A stretch of DNA of 64,000 bases from Agaribacillus aureus (GTDB lineage: Bacteria; Bacteroidota; Bacteroidia; Cytophagales; Cyclobacteriaceae), in assembly GCA_030442055.1 (NCBI GenBank), contig JAUJEB010000001.1, positions 124,001 to 188,000 on the forward strand, in the 5' to 3' direction. The notes beneath the pieces are model-generated. The model was given only the letters and a program-made list of their open reading frames with translations. It was not told the origin of the DNA and ran no database searches. The position numbers and the translations under genes were made by a program. Position 1 is the stretch's first letter; the number at the start of each line of letters is the position of its first letter. Positions 22,525 through 38,529 of the stretch are shown here, piece after piece.

Positions 22525-22598
22525 GGCGAGGTAGCTCAGTTGGTTAGAGCGCAGGATTCATAACCCTGAGGTCACGGGTTCAACTCCCGTCTTCGCTA
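22525..22598 (+). tRNA. tRNA-Met (anticodon CAU)
   Basis: 74-nt gene beginning GGCGAGG and ending CTTCGCT plus discriminator A (a G-U pair closes the acceptor). The anticodon loop TTCATAA gives anticodon CAT; the stem CAGGA/CCCTG has one A-C mismatch next to the loop. The first base pair is G-U, not the C-A mismatch of an initiator, so an elongator is more likely. CCA is not encoded. A good terminator follows. Confidence 0.93.
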
Positions 22599-22603
22599 CA
22601 CTT

Positions 22604-22633
22604 AGTCCGAAACGTTAAGTTTTGGACTTTTTT
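22604..22633 (+). terminator. Terminator of tRNA-Met
   Basis: AGTCCGAAAC (22604-22613) pairs with GTTTTGGACT (22619-22628; one G-U pair), followed by a run of Ts to 22633. It starts 6 bp after the tRNA. Confidence 0.8.
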
Positions 22634-23112
22634 GTTTGAAATTGTTAAAAATGTCCTGAAAACGCATCAAATGTTGCACCTACTATGGCATTTTATCAGG
22701 TCACTTTTGTATTTTATCGCTTTCAATTAAATTCTAACTTATTATTAAATGGGTCTGTTACTTCCAAACAGAGATCTGTCCAAAGAGCTTTTTCAATGCC
22801 AGGATTGTTGTACTGGTACCCCTTCCATTTCTGGTTTTTGTGAAACTATCTTAGACCCCTCCAATTGATAAATACCCTCGCTGCCGGTTAACAATCTACA
22901 TGATGTTCAATAAGGTGAAGTACTACTCCATCTTTTAAGGTCTTGATTTAGTAGAGAGCATTGTCATGATATTTTTGTTCCCAGTTTATATTGAAACATT
23001 CAGTAGTATTAGTTTTAATATGGGCGTTGGAAGCATAAAAATTCTCTTTACCTATGTATTTAAAAATATTAAATTTAGAAAATACATTTAATAAAACATT
23101 AATCCTTATAAA
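22634..23112. other. Gap with possible coding relic on the minus strand
   Basis: 479 bp between tRNA-Met and the permease. On the minus strand about 22775-22870, two overlapping frames read like protein (SEGIYQLEGSKIVSQKPEMEG, then after a frame change NPGIEKALWTDLCLEVTDP), which suggests a degraded gene remnant. No family can be named. The last 100 bp are extremely AT-rich and presumably hold the promoter of the permease gene. Confidence 0.3.
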
Positions 23113-25500: not shown

Positions 25501-25894
25501 CCAGAAGTTGATAGAGGATCGTGTCCGCCCAGTAATCTACACTAATGTGTTGGTTTTTCTAAAGCTATATTTCAGGACAACAGGTAGCTGGCTTTATTGA
25601 CCGGATAATCAGAGAATGTATATTTTTGTAGTTTTTGGTAAAGCTACAAAAGAAGTAAGGCTACATCTTGACGAGGATTATTAGGCATCGTCAAAGCCAC
25701 TATTTCTTTTCTTAGTATTAGGGATATATAAACCCATTTTCTCCAAATATAATTGTCCGAGTTTAGGACGAGTTACAAGTTTTAAGAGATCAAATACCCC
25801 CCCAGTGACGTAATTGTCAAACACCATTTTTGATTACCAGGTCAAATGTTGTCAATTTCGAAATTTCCAAAAAATTCAGAGGAAAGCTATTAAG

Positions 25895-26060
25895 TTTTCA
25901 AACCAGACTCAAAAATGTTAAAACTTCCTGCAGATCTGGAATGATCAGGTTCGATATTGATCCCCTCGCCGCTACTACGAAGGTCAGCAACACAGCTGAC
26001 CTTTTTTATTTACTGAAAATAAAGAAGTTATAAATACATTTGAGGTTCGATAAATTCCGT
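25895..26060 (+). repeat. Copy A of a tRNA-3'-end-like repeat with hairpin
   Basis: Copy A contains GGTTCGAT at 25948, then CCCCTCGCCGCTAC (25962-25975), a perfect 9-bp hairpin AAGGTCAGC/GCTGACCTT (25980-26003) followed by Ts, then TTACTGAAAATAAAGAAGTTATA and another GGTTCGAT (26043). Copy B (30539-30700) aligns with it without gaps for 53 bases up to GGTTCGAT and keeps all the later blocks, although the hairpin stem sequence differs. The block resembles a tRNA T-arm plus acceptor strand plus terminator, but the T-arm is disrupted by extra bases and no 5' half is present. Confidence 0.6.
25980..26009 (+). terminator. Terminator-like hairpin of repeat copy A
   Basis: AAGGTCAGC (25980-25988) pairs perfectly with GCTGACCTT (25995-26003), 6-nt loop, followed by TTTT. 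A strong intrinsic terminator on the plus strand with no recognisable gene in front of it other than the repeat itself. Confidence 0.7.
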
Positions 26061-26160
26061 TTTTTAGGGTAAGAGGGTGTGATAGTTAAGTATGCTTTTA
26101 TTTGTAAATAACTGATCATCATTATTTTAAACATGTGATTTTGAGTTCGATAATGGTAAA

Positions 26161-26277
26161 GTATAAGCGTAATGTGAGATTAGAAGCAATTCGATTTCGG
26201 TTTATCGTTACGTTTGGGAATAATTAATCGTTTAATTCCGTCACTTTCGCCCGCATTACGCTTATACATTGTTAGCC
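26161..26277. repeat. attC-like palindrome 1
   Basis: GTATAAGCGTAATG (26161-26174) and CATTACGCTTATAC (26254-26267) form a perfect 14-bp inverted repeat around an 79-nt spacer. The right arm is followed by ATT and GTTAGCC, close to the integron core site GTTRRRY. It lies 12 bp beyond the stop of the minus-strand amidohydrolase gene. A long palindrome ending in GTTAG just after a gene is the form of an integron attC site, but the matching RYYYAAC at the outer left end is absent, so this is tentative. Confidence 0.4.
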
Positions 26278-26289
26278 CCAGTTTTCTAA

Positions 26290-28026
26290 TTATCCGTTTT
26301 CCTTAAACTTTCCTTTATAGACTATTCCTTTTACTTTAATGTCTTTAATTTCCATAGGTTCTATTTTAAAAGGGTTTTTATCAATAATCGTAAAGGTGGC
26401 GAACTTCGCTCGTTTTATACTACCTATCTCATCACCTTTAGAAAAAGTATGCGCTGCATCTATAGTAATGGCCTTCATGGCATCCCAAACCGTGATTTTC
26501 AAATCCGGCCGCAATACTTGCCCATTATCGGTCATTCTGGTAGCAGCTACCCATGCCAAGGTAAGAGGCTCTGCCGGAGCCATAGCAAAATCAGAATGTA
26601 AAGACATGGGAATACTTCTGTCTGTAAGCCATTTCATTCCGGCGATTCTGGCTGCTCTTTCTTTTCCAAACCCAATTTCACCATACTTGTTGCCTAGTGC
26701 CCATAGGTAATAGGAATTTACAGAGGCTTCTACACCTAGCTCTTTCATCTGCTGTGCCTGTGCTTCATCAAACAATCCCAAATGATGCATGGTGGTTTGG
26801 TGGTTTTCTCTTGGGGTGCGTTTCATGCTCTTATCCAATATGTCTAGCGCAGCCTGCAAACCTTTATCTCCGGTCACATGAATGTGAAGTTTATAGCCTT
26901 TGTCCCAAAAAAAGTCAAAAACTTCTTTATGCATGTCAGGAGGCATAATCCATTCTGCATGGCAATGAGGGCAATTGGCAAAGCCATCTTTTAGCTGCAA
27001 GGCTAATGAATAAATAGCTCCGTCAGAAAATGTCTTATACTGATTGGTCAAAAATTCAATATTATCAGTGTTGTATTCAGACATCTTCTGTACATAAGCA
27101 TGCATTTCTTCGTTATTTTTCTTAAGTGTGAATTGCTCAGGAAATCCGGGAACGAGATACATGGTATAATATGGAAATCGCTCGCATTCGGCTTTTAGCA
27201 AATTGTACTCTGAATGAAACTCTGTATTGGGAAAGGAAGGTTCCATCATAGCGGTTATTCCGTTCTGAAGCATCATTTCAGACATGCGTTCCATTCCGAG
27301 AGTAAGCCGCTCTTTGTCACCATATACCGCAGGAGTTAGGTAACCGGCTCGTAGTTCTTGGAATCCTCTTTCCCAAAAGTGATTGTTTTTAGCATCCATT
27401 TGGTCTTGGTTTTCAAATTTGGAAACATCCACATTGAATTTTCTCATAGCGGCATCGTTAAGGTAATACTCATGACCTGATCTATGAAATATCAAAATGG
27501 GGATGGTGCTTGAGACAGCATTGAGGTCTTCTTTGGTCAGTGGTCCATGCCAAGCTTGGTGGTAACCCCATGCCAATACATAATCCTTTTCTTTATTCTC
27601 TTCTACAATTTTTTTCAGGCCACTTATATATTCCTCGTGATTGGTAGCGGCTTGATAGGTTTTGTAAGGCATGCTCCATTCATGTGGTGCTACTATTTCA
27701 TTTCCTAAAATAAATGCTCCAATAGAAACAGGATGTGCATGAGGCTCTATAAAACCAGGCATCATGGTTGCTCCTTCCAAGTCAAATTCTTCAGCGCCTT
27801 TGTAGGATTTTTCAGCTTTGTCCTTACTACCCACAAAAACGATCTTGCCGTTTTGCTGCACTACAGCCTCCGCATACTCAGGGCTATCGCCTTCCATGGT
27901 AATGATGTCACCACTATGGTAAATTGTGGCTGATCCTTTATCAGAATCTGCATCCTTTTTTGTTCTGTTACAGGAAGTAAATAAAATTACACCCACGGTT
28001 AAAATTAGAAGTAATCTTGATTTCAT
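26290..28026 (-). CDS. Amidohydrolase (YtcJ-like) lipoprotein
   Basis: 578-aa metal-dependent hydrolase of the amidohydrolase_3 / YtcJ group. An N-terminal signal with a lipobox (LFTSC, Cys about 19) indicates a lipid-anchored, exported protein. The TIM-barrel metal site is visible: MPGFIEPHAHP (about 89-99, HxH), KLHIHVTGDKG (about 380-390), TTMHHLGLF and the C-terminal SLHSDFAMAP with its catalytic Asp. Substrates of this group are mostly unknown amides, ureas or formamides. It follows the beta-barrel gene by 50 bp on the same strand, so both form one transcript, possibly uptake plus hydrolysis. Confidence 0.88.
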   Translation of the reverse strand: MKSRLLLILTVGVILFTSCNRTKKDADSDKGSATIYHSGDIITMEGDSPEYAEAVVQQNGKIVFVGSKDKAEKSYKGAEEFDLEGATMMPGFIEPHAHPVSIGAFILGNEIVAPHEWSMPYKTYQAATNHEEYISGLKKIVEENKEKDYVLAWGYHQAWHGPLTKEDLNAVSSTIPILIFHRSGHEYYLNDAAMRKFNVDVSKFENQDQMDAKNNHFWERGFQELRAGYLTPAVYGDKERLTLGMERMSEMMLQNGITAMMEPSFPNTEFHSEYNLLKAECERFPYYTMYLVPGFPEQFTLKKNNEEMHAYVQKMSEYNTDNIEFLTNQYKTFSDGAIYSLALQLKDGFANCPHCHAEWIMPPDMHKEVFDFFWDKGYKLHIHVTGDKGLQAALDILDKSMKRTPRENHQTTMHHLGLFDEAQAQQMKELGVEASVNSYYLWALGNKYGEIGFGKERAARIAGMKWLTDRSIPMSLHSDFAMAPAEPLTLAWVAATRMTDNGQVLRPDLKITVWDAMKAITIDAAHTFSKGDEIGSIKRAKFATFTIIDKNPFKIEPMEIKDIKVKGIVYKGKFKENG

Positions 28027-28076
28027 AATTATGGTCTTTAGATTGTTTCCATCGATCCACTTGCTTTTTGTGAATT

Positions 28077-28799
28077 TTAAAAGTAGAAAGTTGCTCCTGA
28101 CCTTAAAGTGTGAACGTCTTGAGTAAAGAGTGGAAAATACCCGAGGTTAAGCTTTAGTTTGTTCGGTTTTGCCATGTAATTAAAATTAAATTCACCGGAC
28201 CAAAGCATTTCATCTAAAATATTTACTATAGGGTTGATAAATACAAATGCCCTTTGACTAAAACTGATGCTCATGTTAGTTTGTATGTTAATGCCGTTTT
28301 GTGCTTTCCCATCAAAATCTTCGGGTTCTGTAACATGCACATATCCAACCCCGGGAAACAAGGCAATTTTTTGTGTTAAGATTATTCCTATTACCGTACC
28401 TGCAGAAAGCGTCCACGAACTACTCCCCAACCCATCTTCAAATTTTCCTATTGGAAGTGTAACATCGACAAAAGGAGCTATGGCAATGATGGCTTTAGTT
28501 AGGTTTCGTCTAGCCGCATAAAAATATCTCATTCGCATATCTGACAGACCAAATTTTTCTGTCGCTGAGTTATATAAAATGGGAAGTTCTACCAATAACA
28601 GATTATCAGGATTAAAAGTATACTGGATATTTAGCCTTGTTCCATAAATGTTATCTCTTGATTCAGGGTTTTGGTGTTCTAAGAGTGTATTTATCTGAGT
28701 ATATAAGTTAGTCGGTTTTGAGGCGTCCACCTCTGTTTCCTGAGCTATTAAGGAATTAAAAGAAGCAAAGACTATTAACGTTAATATGGCTTTTTTCAT
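28077..28799 (-). CDS. Outer-membrane beta-barrel protein, transporter-like
   Basis: 240 aa with a signal peptide ending at IAQ (about 20). The mature part is made of alternating beta strands (RLNIQYTFNPDNLLLVELPILY, LKLNLGYFPLF) and ends in aromatic GATFYF, as barrels inserted by BamA do. It resembles the family of short putative transporters related to phenol-degradation MetA proteins, with a conserved-looking APFVDVTLPIGKFEDGLGSSSW core. It is 50 bp upstream of the amidohydrolase gene in the same direction and might deliver or release its substrate. Confidence 0.75.
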   Translation of the reverse strand: MKKAILTLIVFASFNSLIAQETEVDASKPTNLYTQINTLLEHQNPESRDNIYGTRLNIQYTFNPDNLLLVELPILYNSATEKFGLSDMRMRYFYAARRNLTKAIIAIAPFVDVTLPIGKFEDGLGSSSWTLSAGTVIGIILTQKIALFPGVGYVHVTEPEDFDGKAQNGINIQTNMSISFSQRAFVFINPIVNILDEMLWSGEFNFNYMAKPNKLKLNLGYFPLFTQDVHTLRSGATFYF

Positions 28800-28800
28800 T

Positions 28801-28870
28801 GTTTAACGCTTTTAAGTTGTTGCCAATGATTCTTAGCTGCTATATGCAACTGCACCACACAATGTTAGCA
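28801..28870. repeat. attC-like element 2
   Basis: 70 bp bounded by GTTTAAC (28801) and GTTAGCA (28864), with an internal inverted pair GTTGC/GCAAC. On the minus strand it reads GCTAACATTG ... AAGCGTTAAAC and fills the whole gap between the serine-hydrolase gene and the barrel gene. GTTAAAC fits the integron R' core GTTRRRY. Size, position and cores fit an attC site; folding is weak by eye. Confidence 0.35.
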
Positions 28871-28890
28871 AACGGTCGTTCTGAATTTCG

Positions 28891-30228
28891 CTATAATGTT
28901 TTAACAATGGTCCGACTAAAGGCTTCCATCGGAATTTCTGGAAATCCTGTCGCAAACCACACCACAACCGCATCCTTTGCAGGTGAAACGTAGATGCCTT
29001 GCCCATTCATACCACTTTTGTAAATATCACCATCTGCAAATACAGCATCCCATTGGTAGCTGTTAAACTCAGGTTGCTCTCTGAACTCTTCCGCCATTCG
29101 AGGGCCGAGCGTTCCCTTCATATAATTATTCTTAATCCCGGAGGCCTGTATCTTGTTCAGCACTTGTTCTGATACGACTTCTTTTGAAGAAATAAGCTGC
29201 CAGCTTGGGGTAAAGAGCATTCCTATTTTGGCCATGTCTTCCAACCTAGAACTTATCAACCCATGTATGACACCATTGCCTTGTGGACTTAACCCCAAAA
29301 GTGCATCACCAGTCATGCCTGCATGCATCCATATCCGCTCAGTAATCAATTCACTGATTCTCTTGTTGCCAACAGCTTCCACTATAAGGCACAACATCTG
29401 TGTATTAGCAGAGGAATATTCAAAGGCTTCCCCGGGTTCTCGTAATTTTGGAATCCGGAACAGCGCTTCGTTGTGTGTTAATGATTTTCCGTCAACAACG
29501 GCTTCACCCACCTCCGACGCAGCAAAAATGCCATAGGGAGTCGCCCCTTTTCGAGAGGCAGGATTTTCTTCAAGATCTAATCCTGACTGCATGTTCAGCA
29601 CATCCACCACTTTAATATTTTCCCATGCCGTGCCTTTGGTTTCGGGTACGTAATTTGATACGGTTTTTTGAATATCAACCAGTCCTTCTTCTTCCATTTG
29701 GGCAATTAACAAACCCGCTAATATCTTAGCATTAGACATCCATACATGGTTGTCGGTTTTTCTCATTCCAGGGTATTTTTCATATATTATTTTACCGTTT
29801 TGCACCACAAGTATACCTTGCACAGGAGATTCGTCTGCCGTTATCATCTGTTCAAAGGTTATCTTTTCTTTTTGCTCATTTTCTAAAACCAGTTGGCCAA
29901 TAGCAGGGTTGATATCCACTTCCAATTCCTTTACCGGTCCATCTCTACGAATAATTGCATGTGGCATGAATTCTGCAAGGTTTATGTAGGAGTAGGCTCC
30001 CGCTTCGGTTATATCTAAAAATTTTTGCAGGCTCCAGGCCTCATGAAGCTCATTGGCCTTAGTCAAGGAATAACCTTTCTTTAGATCTGGCACAGAGAAA
30101 TCTTCCTCTAGAGTAGCGTATGCATCGGCGCCGGCATCGGGCGTTTTTTGGGCTTCATTTTGAGTATTATTTTGACAACAAACAAAATAGGCACCCATTA
30201 ACATCAAAATATAAATTGTGTTTTTCAT
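28891..30228 (-). CDS. Serine hydrolase (beta-lactamase/class C family) lipoprotein
   Basis: 445 aa with a short signal and a lipobox ending in CC (about 17-18). Catalytic motifs of the beta-lactamase-related (PF00144) family are present: SNAK (SxxK, in VWMSNAKILAGLL, about 171-174) and YSSANTQ (about 278, YxN-like position YSS/SAN). Members act as D,D-peptidases, esterases or lactonases; the substrate here is unknown. The gene is on the same strand as the barrel and amidohydrolase genes and separated from them by an attC-like element. Confidence 0.85.
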   Translation of the reverse strand: MKNTIYILMLMGAYFVCCQNNTQNEAQKTPDAGADAYATLEEDFSVPDLKKGYSLTKANELHEAWSLQKFLDITEAGAYSYINLAEFMPHAIIRRDGPVKELEVDINPAIGQLVLENEQKEKITFEQMITADESPVQGILVVQNGKIIYEKYPGMRKTDNHVWMSNAKILAGLLIAQMEEEGLVDIQKTVSNYVPETKGTAWENIKVVDVLNMQSGLDLEENPASRKGATPYGIFAASEVGEAVVDGKSLTHNEALFRIPKLREPGEAFEYSSANTQMLCLIVEAVGNKRISELITERIWMHAGMTGDALLGLSPQGNGVIHGLISSRLEDMAKIGMLFTPSWQLISSKEVVSEQVLNKIQASGIKNNYMKGTLGPRMAEEFREQPEFNSYQWDAVFADGDIYKSGMNGQGIYVSPAKDAVVVWFATGFPEIPMEAFSRTIVKTL

Positions 30229-30538
30229 GTTTATAAGTTTTGGATGAGTTAAATGCTAGCTGATTTTTGAATATACCCTGGGGGTAATTCCATATACATG
30301 TAAATTACTTATAACATTTACGAACGGCACACACATGGTCGTCTATATTCGTAAACAACTTGCTAATGAATATGGTTTGGTTAGAAAACAAAATTAGTTA
30401 GGTGATGAGACTATTTGAAGTCTTAAGCTGGGCATAGTGTACAGATTAAGGATGCCCCTATCTGGGCCCAATCATGGTCCAATAGCCTAAAACCGTGGGT
30501 TATCAACTTGATAAGAATTCTGTCGTTTTGTTGTAAAT
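30229..30538. other. Gap upstream of the serine hydrolase
   Basis: 310 bp with no gene. It contains an inverted repeat TTTACGAA/TTCGTAAA around a 24-nt spacer (about 30318-30357) and presumably the promoter of the minus-strand gene starting at 30228. Nothing else recognised. Confidence 0.35.
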
Positions 30539-30700
30539 TTTTCAGGACAAAAGACCAAACACCAGTATACTTTTTAAATCTGGGAAGAAAAGGTTCGATG
30601 TTTGTCCCCTCGGCGCTACTGACAGGGATTGCAAGGTGCAATCCCTTTTCTATTACTGATAATCAGGAAGTTATAGTGATACCACTGGTTCGATAATTCT
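30539..30700 (+). repeat. Copy B of the tRNA-3'-end-like repeat with hairpin
   Basis: Copy B has GGTTCGAT at 30592, CCCCTCGGCGCTAC (30606-30619), a 9-bp hairpin AGGGATTGC/GCAATCCCT (30624-30646), TTACTGATAATCAGGAAGTTATAG, and GGTTCGATAATTC near its end (30687). It aligns gaplessly with copy A over the 53 bases before GGTTCGAT. The hairpin stem is a different sequence from copy A but keeps its place and length, which implies selection on structure. Confidence 0.6.
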
Positions 30701-30855
30701 AGATTTTTTATTTCCAAATTCAATGACCAGCAAGACCTGTTGATAAAATTTGATTAGTCGATATTGATGTTAGCATGGACGTGTGTCTGAGTATCTTATA
30801 AGTGTGATTCTAAAATGCGTTTGGCTGAAATTAGGTTGTTATTATTGTTTCCTAC

Positions 30856-31446
30856 CTAGCCTCCCTCAGAATTCCACCTCTTGATAGCATCCTTTAGCCA
30901 TTGTGGTTTGGTTTCCATAGATATCTGTGACATATCATAATTTTTAGTTGCCTGCTCCGCAATCCTATATAATTCTTGTAGTGTGGGAACATCCCATTCG
31001 GCCCTTTCTTCATCAGTCGTTTCCGGAGCAACATCCCACAATCTGAATCTTACACCATCCGGAACATACTGTAGTCCAAATTTTTGAGGTTTGCCCCGGT
31101 ACATCAACCATCGGTCATATGCAGCCGCAGCAAATCGCTTAGCTCCTTCGTAATTTAGGTCGACACTTTTTAGCGCCAAATGATAGGCTTGTCTAAAGTC
31201 GTCAGGGCAATCACCATGCATAAATATTATACATGCATTAAAATAATCCTCACCAGAAAAATTCGAACTTGACTTGATTATTTCTTTAACTTGAGATATC
31301 CGATGTTTACAGCGCGCTCTCAAGGCTTTATATTCTGGTGTACCATCAAGTGGTTGATTCATACATTCATACTGGTCTTCATCAAATAATATTTTTAATT
31401 TTTTATGCATGTCTTTTGCTTGATGATCTGCAACGGTACTCACCAC
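30856..31446 (-). CDS. DUF6624-like protein
   Basis: 196-aa soluble protein. The first half is helical and charged, followed by a segment DYFNACIIFMHGDCPDDFRQAYHLALKSVDLNYEGAKRFAAAAYDRWLMYRGKPQKFGLQY that resembles the conserved core of DUF6624 proteins (D-R-x-L-x-x-x-G-x-P-Q-x-[FY]-G-T/L-Q). The start is uncertain: GTG 31446 or the ATG encoding MHKKLKIL at 31410. Function unknown. It stands alone between repeat copy B and the Crp-like gene. Confidence 0.6.
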   Translation of the reverse strand: MVSTVADHQAKDMHKKLKILFDEDQYECMNQPLDGTPEYKALRARCKHRISQVKEIIKSSSNFSGEDYFNACIIFMHGDCPDDFRQAYHLALKSVDLNYEGAKRFAAAAYDRWLMYRGKPQKFGLQYVPDGVRFRLWDVAPETTDEERAEWDVPTLQELYRIAEQATKNYDMSQISMETKPQWLKDAIKRWNSEGG

Positions 31447-31919
31447 TACGAGTGATAATCACACCTTATCTTTTAAATCTAAAGTTTTTTGGTTTTTCTG
31501 ACAAAGTTTACTTTGTAAAAGTGCTTTAGGAGGGTATTATATACGCTGAAAAGAATTACCTGAAATCCGCATGGAACCTCTTTCCTTTCTTTTAGATTTT
31601 AAAAGCAGCAATTGTTGAGAATCTAAGTTGCTGGAAATGCTTTTTACACAGTAAAAAGCCAATTATTAGATGAAGTGTTACAGTGTAGCGTATCATAACA
31701 AATACCAAGCGTTATTGGCTAACAGAGCTCATTGCAAAAGTCTGTACGATAAGCTACTTTTGATAGTATTTGAAAGGCTAAGCCTGCTGACCGTTGTGTG
31801 GTATTAACCCAAATGAAAGGGCTTATTGTGTGCTGAAGGTAAAGACAGCGCGAACATAAGAAAGGATTGCTGGCGGTGATTGTCTGATGAAATCCCACAA
31901 ATGCTTTAATCGATTATAA
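31447..31919. other. 473-bp gene-free stretch before the Crp-like regulator
   Basis: No complete gene. A short plus-strand frame at about 31679-31805 (YSVAYHNKYQALLANRAHC) might be a coding relic, and GGCTAAC at about 31718 resembles an integron core site, but neither is convincing. The region should include the promoter of the gene at 31920. Confidence 0.3.
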
Positions 31920-32513
31920 ATGAGTTTATATCGAGCTTTTAGAAAAGCCCTTGAAGAAGGAGCTCCAATACAAGATGAAAATTGGTCTCACATAAGACCT
32001 TTGTTGAAACTCCGCCACTTTAAAAAAGGTGAATATATTATCAGAGAAGGCCAGGTTGAAGACTATCTTTCTGCTGTAGCCTCAGGTTGCGTCAGGCACT
32101 TCATCGTGAAAGGAGACCATCAGGTCAGTTTCGAGTTTGCATTTGAAAACGAATTAAGCAATTCTTATGCTTCTTTTCTTTCCAGGCAACCATCCCGTAT
32201 TTTTATAGAAGCGATGGAAGACGTTTGTTTGGTTAGTCTTCACCACAACAGTTTACAAGAACTATACAAGGACTCGGCTGTCGGAGAACGCATTGGAAGG
32301 CTGACAACTGAAAACTACTACATCTGGAGGGAACAGCGTGAACTCATGCTGTTAACGCTCTCCCCGGAAGAGCTCTATCTTGACTTACTCTCTAATTATC
32401 CTGTATATATCAATCGTATCCCCCAAAAGTATCTCGCTTCCTACCTACAGGTAAAGCCTGAATCTCTGAGCAGAATAAAAAGAAGAATTTATACAAACCG
32501 GAATCGAACTTAA
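31920..32513 (+). CDS. Crp/Fnr-family transcriptional regulator
   Basis: 197 aa. Residues about 25-120 form a cyclic-nucleotide-binding-like beta roll (FKKGEYIIREGQVEDYLSAVASGCVRHF), and residues about 145-190 a degenerate winged helix (NRIPQKYLASYLQVKPESLSRIKRR) of the type seen in many Bacteroidota Crp-like proteins. The residues that bind cAMP in E. coli Crp are not conserved, so the ligand is unknown. It precedes an outer-membrane barrel gene by about 60 bp on the same strand and may regulate it. Confidence 0.85.
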   Translation: MSLYRAFRKALEEGAPIQDENWSHIRPLLKLRHFKKGEYIIREGQVEDYLSAVASGCVRHFIVKGDHQVSFEFAFENELSNSYASFLSRQPSRIFIEAMEDVCLVSLHHNSLQELYKDSAVGERIGRLTTENYYIWREQRELMLLTLSPEELYLDLLSNYPVYINRIPQKYLASYLQVKPESLSRIKRRIYTNRNRT

Positions 32514-32571
32514 CCAAGGTTATTTTTTCTGAATCAGCTCTCAAATACCTTTGCATCGTATTAAAAAAACG

Positions 32572-33309
32572 ATGAAAGTTATGAGACCATATTTTAAAAT
32601 CATTGTGGCTTTGGTTGGTGTGTTTACAGCCGTAGAAGCTGATTTATTTGCCCAGGAGCCCCCCCATGACTTCCAAAGACATAGCAATATATACATTAGC
32701 TTTGGGGCTGGTTCTTCTATGCTCAATCAATTTCCATCCGATATTTATTTTGCCGGAAGTACAAATTTACAGTTAGGTGCCATGTATGAAAGCGCTTTCC
32801 ATAAGCGGTTCTCTTTAATAGCCGGTGTAGAGTTCGAGCAGGTATCGTATAATTTTGATGGCGACATTGATTTCACATCTGGTTCTACCCTGAATATCGT
32901 GCGGGCAGGATCCGATAAGAAATATACGAGGATCAGACAACGCAATGTAGCGATCCCATTGCAGGGCAGATTCTATTTTTCAAGCAATAACACAGCCGAT
33001 ACAAAAAATATGTTTGTCCAAAGTGGGATTCGCCTGGTTCAAACTTTAGACTTTATAAATTCTGACAGTTTTGGAACCACCTATTACTATCGCAGTAATG
33101 GTGAGGAAAATCAAATTTCACTAGATGATTTTGCAAACCAAACCGTTATACAGGCAGAACTAATGATCGGATTTAAGGGTCAATTTTTCAAGAATTTTGA
33201 TATACTTAATGCCTCCACCCTTGGTTTTATGTATCAGTTTACCCCATTGCTAAAAGATGGATCAACAGAAATATATCCCATCCATTTTACATGGCGGTTT
33301 TTATTCTAA
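32572..33309 (+). CDS. Outer-membrane beta-barrel protein
   Basis: About 245 aa. I start at ATG 32572 (MKVMRPYFKIIVALVGVF); an in-frame TTG at 32551 would add seven residues not typical of a signal peptide. A signal peptide runs to about DLFAQ. The mature protein consists of alternating beta strands (ISFGAGSSMLNQF, FSLIAGVEFEQVSYNF, STLGFMYQFTPLL) and ends IHFTWRFLF with a terminal Phe, as in OmpA-like or PorT-like barrels. Role unknown. It lies downstream of the Crp-like gene and ends at an attC-like element. Confidence 0.75.
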   Translation: MKVMRPYFKIIVALVGVFTAVEADLFAQEPPHDFQRHSNIYISFGAGSSMLNQFPSDIYFAGSTNLQLGAMYESAFHKRFSLIAGVEFEQVSYNFDGDIDFTSGSTLNIVRAGSDKKYTRIRQRNVAIPLQGRFYFSSNNTADTKNMFVQSGIRLVQTLDFINSDSFGTTYYYRSNGEENQISLDDFANQTVIQAELMIGFKGQFFKNFDILNASTLGFMYQFTPLLKDGSTEIYPIHFTWRFLF

Positions 33310-33363
33310 ACTTTACGAATTACACGCTACAGTAATTTTGCTGATTTGGGCTGATCGTTAGAC
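33305..33363. repeat. attC-like element 3
   Basis: 59 bp starting in the stop region of the beta-barrel gene (TCTAAAC, 33305) and ending GTTAGAC (33357-33363), which fits the integron core GTTRRRY. It contains the partial inverted repeat GAATTAC/GTAATTT. Position right after a gene and length are those of short attC sites; base pairing is limited. Confidence 0.3.
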
Positions 33364-33439
33364 AAACAAACTAATGAGAAAGCATGTGTTAAAAATATAT
33401 AGCAGATAGAGGTTTGATAAAAATCAAACAAAATGTTGC

Positions 33440-33580
33440 TATTCTCTTTATTAAATGCCTGGAAAACCAATACTATTCATAAGCCCGGGGTGATCTGGCT
33501 CGATATTGGTCCCCTTGTCGCTGCTTTTAGCGCGAATCTTAGTGATTATAAGCAACTGAAAATAAAGCTATTACAAGTTA
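33440..33580 (+). repeat. Copy C (degenerate) of the tRNA-3'-end-like repeat
   Basis: Copy C has GATCTGGCTCGATATTGG at 33493, followed by CCCCTTGTCGCTGC and later CAACTGAAAATAAAGCTATTACA (33554), in the same order and spacing as copies A and B. The hairpin is not well preserved. An 84-codon open frame that spans this copy is not considered a gene. Confidence 0.5.
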
Positions 33581-33726
33581 AAAACTTGCTAATATTTGAA
33601 GGTTTAAGTTACGCTTCGCTAAACTTAAACCAGTTAAGAAGGGTTTTACATCTTCATAGCATTTGCTTTAGGCTTATAGCCAATTGAAGCGATCAGTCCG
33701 ATGCACAAATCTCAAGACGATACCCA

Positions 33727-34638
33727 TCAGTTTCCGGAGAAAGTGGAGATGAATTTTGTCGGGCTTAGTCCCGTTTTCTTTTTAAATAATCTTGAAAAGT
33801 ATTCAGGGTATTCAAAACCCAACTTATAGGCCGTTTCGCTTATCGTTATGTTAGGTTGAAGCAACAGGTTTTTCGCTTCTTCAACTAAGAAAAGATTCAG
33901 CTGGTCCTTGGCTGTTTTGCCCGATTCCGCTTTGATGCTATCACTCAGGTATCTCTTGCTTACGCCAAGCTCGCTGGCAAACCACTCCAGTTTTGGAACT
34001 CCTTTCTTCGCCAAATTATCACTGGCAAAGTATTCGGTAACCAGGTCAAGAAATTTCGACAGCAATGTTGAATTCAGTTGTTCCCGATAAAGGAATTGTC
34101 TTTTGTAATACCTGTCGGCGTATCTCAGCAGGGTCTCTAAATGCGAAAGGATGATTTCTTTACTAAATTCGTCCTGATTGTTGAAATATTCAGTTTCCAT
34201 ATTGTCATAGATACCCTGTAAAGTCTTTTCTTCCGTGGAGGCCAGGTGTAAAGCTTCGTTTATGGTGTATTCAAAGAAATGATACTTGTTAATTCTATTG
34301 GCTAAATCATGTCCCATCAGAAAATCTTTATGGAACAGAATACTGAATCCTCCATGTTCAAATTCTGCATCTTCAGCCATGGTTACTTGCCCGGGCGATA
34401 CAAACAAAAGCACTCCTTTCTCACAATCATACTTCGTTCTGCCATAAGCAATACTCCCTTTAATAATCCTCTTTAGCGCAACAATGTAGTAGTCGGACCT
34501 GATCGGTTCAGCGTTGACAAATTTGTGGGCCGTTGCTAGTACTTCCTTTGACGGGCGATTAGGAAAGAACAAGGGATGCTCAGGAGGCTCCAGGCCAAAA
34601 TGGTTGGTCATCTCCGTGATGGTCTTAAAATGAAGCAT
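33727..34638 (-). CDS. AraC-family transcriptional regulator
   Basis: 303 aa. The N-terminal 190 residues are a cupin-like sensor region (FVSPGQVTMAEDAEFEHGGFSILFH), and the C-terminal 100 residues hold two HTH motifs of the AraC/XylS type, ending with KLGFEYPEYFSRLFKKKTGLSPTKF. It is 19 bp downstream of the alpha/beta hydrolase gene on the same strand, at the end of a run of three hydrolase genes, so it is probably co-transcribed with and regulates them. Confidence 0.9.
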   Translation of the reverse strand: MLHFKTITEMTNHFGLEPPEHPLFFPNRPSKEVLATAHKFVNAEPIRSDYYIVALKRIIKGSIAYGRTKYDCEKGVLLFVSPGQVTMAEDAEFEHGGFSILFHKDFLMGHDLANRINKYHFFEYTINEALHLASTEEKTLQGIYDNMETEYFNNQDEFSKEIILSHLETLLRYADRYYKRQFLYREQLNSTLLSKFLDLVTEYFASDNLAKKGVPKLEWFASELGVSKRYLSDSIKAESGKTAKDQLNLFLVEEAKNLLLQPNITISETAYKLGFEYPEYFSRLFKKKTGLSPTKFISTFSGN

Positions 34639-38067: not shown

Positions 38068-38529
38068 ATGAACCATCAAACCATTCAAAAATTTCACGTA
38101 ATTGGCATTTCCATAAGAACGACCAATGAAAATGGGCAATCGGTCAATGACCTTGAAACACTATGGGGTAAATTTTGGGGCGAGGAGATCCAAAAACAAA
38201 TTCCGAACAAGGTCAATGATAATATTTACGCAGTTTATACCGACTATGAAACCGACGTCACCGGGCCATATACAGCAATTATTGGATTACCTGTAAGTTC
38301 GTTAGAAAATATTCCCAAAGATTTTGTAGGAATAACCATTGAAACTGCGGTGTACCAAAAATTTGTTTCAAAAGGCAAAATGCCGGAAGCCGTAGTGGCT
38401 ACCTGGATGGAAATATGGCAAAATAAAAACCTGAACCGGGCTTATAAAGCGGATTTTACTGTTCACGGAAAAAAGTACTACGATGGAGACAATGCCGAGG
38501 TAGAAACTTTTATTTCGGTAAAAAAATAA
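38068..38529 (+). CDS. GyrI-like small-molecule-binding (AraC effector-binding) protein
   Basis: 153-aa stand-alone effector-binding domain of the GyrI-like/Rob C-terminal family. Features are the IGISIRTTNENG start strand, the YAVYTDYETDVTGPYTAIIGLPV core, the conserved TWMEIW segment and a C-terminal YDGDNAEVETFISVKK strand. Such proteins bind hydrophobic or cationic small molecules and often protect against toxins or act with regulators. It is divergent from the hydrolase run, so a link to the same compound class is conceivable. Confidence 0.85.
   Translation: MNHQTIQKFHVIGISIRTTNENGQSVNDLETLWGKFWGEEIQKQIPNKVNDNIYAVYTDYETDVTGPYTAIIGLPVSSLENIPKDFVGITIETAVYQKFVSKGKMPEAVVATWMEIWQNKNLNRAYKADFTVHGKKYYDGDNAEVETFISVKK

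Follow-up and report, generated by a model that had tools for sequence, protein, structure and literature searches.

Repeat blocks behind tRNA genes of Agaribacillus aureus as probable attachment-site ends of small elements added in tandem

We analyzed a stretch of 64,000 nucleotides of the Agaribacillus aureus genome (the window; contig JAUJEB010000001.1, positions 124,001 to 188,000, or G000:C1:124001-188000) that contains three copies, A, B and C, of a repeat block resembling the 3' end of a tRNA gene. It is highly probable that these blocks are the attachment-site ends of small mobile elements that a tyrosine recombinase integrated in tandem arrays at tRNA 3' ends. Blocks were found behind tRNA genes, on the same strand, and their ends matched those of the tRNA genes. 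About half of the blocks had flanks in common with tRNA genes, and the cargo between blocks varied at a conserved chromosomal site. The genome of the window (G000) is an assembly of 9.39 Mb in 36 contigs, and was compared with a sister genome of the same genus (G001) and with other relatives, 59 genomes in all.

A model that had been given the letters of the window and a list of its open reading frames (the sequence-only reading) had described three related copies, each with a hairpin and a common tail, and a gap-free alignment of A and B upstream of the shared core. The relationship and the common TTACTGAAAATAAAG...GTTATA tail stood; the number of copies and the hairpin in C did not. The block is longer than first described, approximately 110-150 nt, and nearly gap-free among A, B and C. 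The alignment of A with B was gap-free across the whole block (71% over 103 alignment columns, E = 2.7e-7 in a 164-kb database). Conservation was highest at the 3' end, where the consensus is near AAATCTGGGATGATAAGGTTCGATATTGATCCCCTCGCCGCTAC, and similarity broke off sharply after ...CCCCTCGCCGCTAC (GCTAC). The sequence behind the blocks varied between copies but sorted into types.

There are nine copies with this kind of end (the Met class) in G000, rather than three, all 3' of a tRNA gene that ends in GCTAC and on the same strand as that gene. Copies A to C lie behind the tRNA-Met(CAT) gene of the window, which ends ...TTCGCTAC. The six other copies, D to I, are on the minus strand elsewhere on contig C1 (3272-3312 kb), and upstream of them on the same strand is a tRNA-Arg(CCT) gene that ends ...GGGGCTAC. 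This arrangement bears out the suggestion that the repeats are integration scars at a tRNA, as does copy S2 of the sister genome, whose terminal 24 nt are identical to nt 51-74 of tRNA-Met. The resemblance that had been noted to a T-arm and acceptor strand with a terminator was a good reading of the attachment core and of the terminator that follows it.

We searched for further copies using a sequence-only model of the block (96 nt, the block minus its last 16 nt, trained on 25 sequences that included two copies from record LYSV01). At E <= 1e-6, the model detected nine copies in G000 and 22 in the sister genome, with eight of the 31 outside the training set, and no copy in the 57 other relatives, where the best match had E = 0.0013. 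Matches distributed in this way are not due to chance. Related genomes had been proposed as the place to look for additional copies, and the sister genome did contain them, some merely ~1-1.4 kb apart. An extra match in G000 (C1:3206342, E = 1.7e-4) was not a block on reading. The exact core was present in eight stretches of database genome contigs, seven in JAKSDQ01 and one in a Flammeovirgaceae bin (records of the genome itself were possibly excluded); apart from JAKSDQ01, the named record with the core was LYSV01 (locus L196). There was no match in viral contigs. A generic arm pattern matched six of 291 genomes of the order, with 18 matches in G000 and one in each of five others. Because the control also gave five single matches, we consider those outside G000 to be background.

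Blocks with other ends fall into further classes. The second class, Pro, is found at tRNA-Pro genes near truncated integrase fragments (example end ...CTCTTCAAATCCTCCATCAAAAAGTTCGATTTGGAGCCAGTCATCCCGAC). Among 18 Pro copies read, the end was identical to the tRNA-Pro 3' end over 14-16 nt in 11 and over 4-12 nt in seven. A pattern spanning the Met and Pro classes had 18 matches in G000 and 32 in the sister genome, with no control matches in either. Clear block ends usually lie 27 nt away from the G of GTTCGAT, and their types are GCTAC (Met/Arg), CCCGAC (Pro), CCCTGC (Ser-like; one copy in each of the two genomes) and CACCACC (Phe-like; one copy).

The class of a block corresponded to the tRNA gene behind which it was located. 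For each block, we took the nearest upstream tRNA gene on the same strand of its contig, and the nearest downstream one as a control. Class labels were assigned by hand; the degenerate copies C, F, S1, S17 and C33:97290 were classed by homology in the first round, and unclear ones were dropped when the G000 test was repeated. Four tRNAs in G000 and eight in the sister genome were entered as unclassified. Among the 18 of 22 known G000 copies with an upstream same-strand tRNA, the class agreed in 17, compared to none of 18 for the nearest downstream tRNA. With shuffled tRNA identities, the mean number of agreements was 1.43 and 17 was reached in none of 20,000 shuffles. Copies behind one tRNA are not independent; because the shuffle permutes tRNA labels, each array is treated as one. 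When only clearly readable ends were used, 13 of 14 agreed (downstream, 0 of 12; 1 of 20,000 shuffles). The repeat test in the sister genome included all 42 known copies, eight with unread class, compared to 30 of 42 in the first round, and none of the 12 added copies was on a contig with a listed tRNA; seven of eight testable blocks agreed (18 of 20,000 shuffles). In addition, a previously missed block was located at a place expected from serial addition at tRNA genes, 1.1-1.2 kb downstream of the tRNA-Arg(CCT) gene of the sister genome.

Terminators provide a further connection between blocks and tRNA genes. The hairpins after A and B had been described as occupying the same place with different stems, and folding confirmed this (-16.0 and -14.9 kcal/mol, z = -7.3 and -4.2). 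Behind C there was no hairpin (z = 0.11; 97 of 200 shuffles folded equally well). The best two terminator-like sites in positions 25700-33800 were those after A and B, with 10 pairs each; the total in that region, seven, was at background (shuffle mean, 6.7). The flank of A, which we call beta-type, aligned with the flanks of B, S5, S7 and the tRNA-Met gene of the sister genome; it had no blastn match to tRNA flanks at E 1e-4. The tRNA-Met and tRNA-Arg(CCT) genes of G000 carry the kind found behind many blocks of the sister genome (alpha-type), and tRNA-Met of the sister genome carries the type found behind A and B. Of 30 Met-class flanks (28 from the two genomes and two from L196), 16 matched any of the five flanks of tRNAs ending in GCTAC, and four matched one of the other 54 tRNA flanks (59 compared in all), with S2 matching both groups. 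Six of seven Pro-class flanks matched a tRNA-Pro flank.

The sequence-only reading had proposed that structure, rather than sequence, is kept. This held for the alpha-type hairpin, where compensatory changes gave the covariation that had been suggested as a check: 96% of cells were paired and 16 cells had double changes, each reached in 0 of 500 shuffles. It did not hold for the block itself, for which RNAalifold on 24 copies predicted 0 pairs, indicating no conserved RNA structure. As a separate observation, in both genomes the tRNA-Thr(TGT) and tRNA-Asn genes (loci L146, L147, L171 and L175) share one kind of 3' terminator, a hint of further element classes.

Serial integration at tRNA 3' ends would explain the position, strand, class matching, common terminators and variable cargo. 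The blocks would correspond to attR, and hence include one arm of attP. A circular form of the element would consist of an arm of ~100-145 nt, a copy of a tRNA 3' end, and a terminator plus the left end of the element. A tyrosine recombinase would carry out the crossover in the terminal bases of the tRNA gene. The gene would retain a complete 3' end and gain the terminator of the element, and the previous terminator would come to lie beyond the element, after the block. Repetition would generate the order tRNA - terminator - cargo - block - terminator - cargo - block, with new elements added at the tRNA end. The crossover, this direction of growth and the enzyme are inferred.

The enzyme is probably a XerC/D-like integrase; truncated 3' ends from this group are common in both genomes. 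A search with the C-terminal end of an integrase gave at least 30 matches each in G000 and the sister genome (for example L127, L128 and L132-L134), some of them just behind tRNAs. Among the matches listed (17 of 30 and 16 of 30, respectively), there was one XerC/D-like protein of ~310 aa in each genome, and the rest were frames of 29-127 aa. Truncated integrase 3' ends were seen behind several of these tRNAs and blocks (an observation without statistics), and a long but interrupted integrase relative is located behind a block in L196. Two of four intact relatives from other genera passed the cut-off of NF040815 (224.7 and 221.3 compared to 220 bits).

Two other groups of recombinase genes were observed. 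In G010 (contig C1), truncated integrase 3' ends form arrays at loci L121 and L123. A conserved sequence follows each of them and stops at a fixed point, beyond which the sequence varies. The conserved part includes a long imperfect inverted repeat, CCAATAAATGAGTTCCG...CGGAATTCGTGTTATTGG, that was read by eye; the layout is attC-like. Three neighbouring tyrosine recombinase genes are present at each of two places in the sister genome (C323:168049-170540 and C91:1731-4208), which we take to be recombinase-trio-like.

The cargo behind tRNA-Met varied between the two genomes while the site was conserved. The LptF/G and START_2 genes precede tRNA-Met in both (78% and 74% identical), and tRNA-Met was within 1.5 kb of an LptF/G gene in 22 of 30 loci from G000 and relatives, with the other orientation in one (L230). 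In the sister genome, the array behind this tRNA-Met is a different one: the corresponding stretch (L054) had no match at E 1e-8 to the open reading frames (ORFs) of at least 120 aa in the window or in the 40 kb beyond it, downstream of the tRNA. Units of the sister genome encode HsdR_N, HigB with a helix-turn-helix partner, SWIM, methyltransferase, Fic, AAA/GmrSD and N6_N4_Mtase proteins, and several of the cargo proteins match PADLOC models (NsnA-C, PD-Lambda-2 and MTase_II). Given that these units match models for toxin-antitoxin systems, methyltransferases and candidate defence genes, new defence genes might be sought in arrays of this kind.

Relatives of other genera had sites of comparable layout. 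In G016, a block-like site ending in GTGCTAC is 3.5 kb behind tRNA-Met and is followed by a terminator nearly the same as that behind the tRNA, and then by a GIY-YIG gene; a partial copy of tRNA-Met is ~50 nt behind tRNA-Met itself. In G021 and G002, a GIY-YIG gene is within 50 nt behind tRNA-Met (44% and 47% identical over 75 aa). Because the hidden Markov model (HMM) of the block matched the G016 site weakly (E = 0.18), we regard that site as an analogue by layout. The flanks of 11 relatives were partly informative as empty sites: a gene for a 406-aa protein is ~74 kb behind tRNA-Met in G000, compared to 4-5 kb in G021 and G002. We also observed partial tRNA-Met copies behind tRNA-Met at L234:16077-16012 and 12277-12220 in G016, as expected from older integrations by other elements.

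Several results weigh against integration at tRNA genes. The terminal identity between Met-class blocks and the tRNA is about 5-7 nt, shorter than is typical of tRNA attachment sites. Most copies in the sister genome (34 of 42, on short contigs) and four of 22 in G000 have no testable tRNA, and one Met-class block, on contig C81 of the sister genome, has an unclassified tRNA upstream. The single mismatch in G000 is the Phe-like block, which lies within the tRNA-Arg array. Some blocks are far from a tRNA (1.2 to 65 kb overall, 1.7 to 65 kb for testable G000 blocks), and, for one of the three tRNA genes ending in GCTAC in G000, a stretch of nearly 12 kb behind the gene contained no block. No match to any tRNA flank was found for 11 of the 30 Met-class flanks, and a few Pro-class flanks also matched tRNA-Val or tRNA-Arg flanks. 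Two measures of alpha covariation were ordinary (pairs with double changes, 184 of 500 shuffles; further pair types, 46 of 500). The comparison with G016, G021 and G002 crosses genera, in addition to the weak score of the G016 site. Finally, there was no intact integrase of the matching group among the matches listed in either genome, and for this reason the arrays may no longer be active.

We considered other explanations for the blocks. It seems very unlikely that block and hairpin together are a family of small-RNA genes with their own terminators, scattered between genes. The strong hairpins behind A and B, the covariation of the alpha type and the intergenic location of the block are consistent with such a family, which the sequence-only reading had also proposed, but the block has no conserved structure and the same terminator types are directly behind tRNAs. 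Rfam at gathering score identified two tRNAs in the window and nothing else, and promoter-like sites were at background (23 compared to a shuffle mean of 22.5, using a sigma-70 consensus that may not fit the phylum). With no support from Rfam, RNAalifold or the promoter scan, this explanation was set aside; it also leaves the matching to tRNAs in 17 of 18 blocks unexplained. A dispersed non-coding repeat (MITE- or REP-like), or partial tRNA duplications, with the link to tRNAs as a by-product, would fit the short match between Met-class blocks and tRNA and the degenerate state of some copies (C and F). We consider this improbable to a similar, high degree: a freely moving repeat would not be expected to keep its strand and position relative to a matching tRNA, to form a Pro class distinguished by its own tRNA end, or to have terminators in common with tRNAs.

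The arrays are like those of integrons in that they have tandem same-strand units (~1-5 kb), each ending in a site-like repeat, with accessory cargo that includes toxin-antitoxin and defence-like genes in the sister genome, and the integrase fragments resemble the XerA/XerD/integron group. Nevertheless, it is extremely unlikely that the blocks are attC sites of a chromosomal integron whose cassettes are moved by IntI. Unlike attC, the block does not fold, and none of the four related integrases reached the TIGR02249 cut-off for IntI (best 230.8 compared to 265, with the match in two stretches). The arrays are anchored at several tRNA genes, not at one intI/attI. We set this explanation aside based on the fold and integrase tests. 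The two clusters of G000 are on opposite strands and towards opposite ends of the contig; the idea that they mirror a replication landmark was dropped because both were found behind tRNAs.

Addition at tRNA genes has precedents. Integrative and conjugative elements (ICEs) and integrative mobilizable elements (IMEs) can accrete in tandem by serial integration at one site. Here, Pfam scans of 39 proteins, which covered part of the array ORFs, showed no relaxase or conjugation family. Additive flexible islands that use several tRNA genes, and whose content varies among close relatives, are described for Alteromonas, Ca. Actinomarinales and Ca. Methylopumilus (PMC7771536, PMC5217437, PMC10872708). 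The last of these reports describes repeats of the last 20 nt of tRNA-Lys, with islands of 330 bp-42 kb, and tycheposons, tRNA-anchored elements of Prochlorococcus and Methylophilaceae with a tyrosine recombinase and varied cargo. Like the additive islands, the arrays described here are located at a tRNA gene on the same strand (in 17 of 18 testable cases in G000, and seven of eight testable of 42 known in the sister genome), repeat the tRNA 3' end in direct orientation at the distal end of the inserted unit (14-16 nt in 11 of 18 Pro copies, 24 nt in S2, about 5-7 nt in the Met class), and differ in content behind the same tRNA between close relatives. Unlike them, the repeat has a constant arm of ~100 nt or more that is common to classes with different tRNA ends. 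Compared to tycheposons, blocks are mostly spaced 1-8 kb apart (one ~24 kb), and recombinases of the matching group are mainly truncated 3' ends, with none intact among the matches listed. The addition of cassettes at tRNAs, with tRNA 3'-end repeats as their marks, is already known, and the new form is the constant arm with exchangeable tRNA-like tips. We found no description of such arrays in searches of the open-access literature on Bacteroidetes and Cytophagales (titles and starts of abstracts among the matches listed), and our literature searches gave none of a long constant arm common to classes with different tRNA tips.

Different versions of the tRNA tip may enable a single system to dock at several tRNA genes. 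We tentatively propose, as a possibility that is on balance doubtful, a multi-address cassette system in which one recombinase would read the constant arm and an exchangeable tRNA-3'-end tip, at its usual 27-nt distance, would pick the tRNA gene. A swap of the tip, and not of the enzyme, would then re-address a cassette, resulting in an integron-like platform over several tRNA loci, possibly served in trans. If tips do set the address, then the enzyme-binding and targeting parts of an attachment site would be separable. With serial integration at tRNA genes, an unexplained repeat could be read as a history of successive gene captures in a genus of Bacteroidota, and arm plus tRNA tip would be a short, searchable signature for such units.

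The features of the array in the window are listed in Table 1.

Table 1. Features of the array behind tRNA-Met(CAT), with positions in the window
Feature	Positions	Strand	Basis and remarks
tRNA-Met(CAT)	22525..22599	+	ARAGORN, Rfam RF00005; array anchor, 3' end ...CGTCTTCGCTAC, presumed attachment core CGCTAC
Alpha-type terminator behind tRNA-Met	22600..22640	+	fold z -4.3; common to block flanks of G001 and the tRNA-Arg(CCT) flank
MacB/FtsX-type permease, 795 aa	23113..25500	+	Pfam; unit 1 cargo
Block A	25826..25975	+	presumed attachment arm and tRNA-3'-end-like core, end of unit 1; block HMM 97.2 bits (in training set)
Beta-type flank of A	25976..26060	+	hairpin terminator, then TTACTGAAAATAAAG...GGTTCGATAAA
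Amidohydrolase family protein, 578 aa	26290..28026	-	Pfam; unit 2 cargo
240-aa protein	28077..28799	-	no Pfam match; unit 2 cargo
Serine hydrolase, Beta-lactamase Pfam family PF00144, 445 aa	28891..30228	-	Pfam; unit 2 cargo
Block B	30470..30619	+	end of unit 2; block HMM 75.5 bits (in training set)
Beta-type flank of B	30620..30715	+	hairpin terminator; blastn to tRNA-Met flank of G001, 42 nt, 86%
196-aa protein	30856..31446	-	weak DUF6624 match below curated cut-off (Pfam); unit 3 cargo
Crp/Fnr-like protein, cyclic-nucleotide-binding domain, 197 aa	31920..32513	+	Pfam; unit 3 cargo
252-aa protein	32551..33309	+	no Pfam match; unit 3 cargo
Block C	33375..33524	+	end of unit 3, degenerate, ends GCTGC; block HMM 57.4 bits (in training set); 96-nt model, E 2.6e-10

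Other features were noted in and near the arrays. Between block A and the amidohydrolase gene (window 26158-26270) there is an inverted repeat with 17-nt arms that are 94% complementary and 79 nt apart, followed by GTTAG. Approximately 4.5 kb after block C, at window positions 38068-38526, is a gene for a Cass2-family protein (Pfam 'Integron-associated effector binding protein'). An Rfam DUF805b RNA (RF02914, 46.6 bits) is located ahead of the array of the sister genome, at L053:3428-3462. At L057:9033-9058 (minus strand), 26 nt outside any tRNA gene are identical to nt 30-55 of tRNA-Met, and five tandem tRNA-Met(CAT) genes with the same 3' ends are present beside the LptF/G gene in G010 (L224:710-1256).

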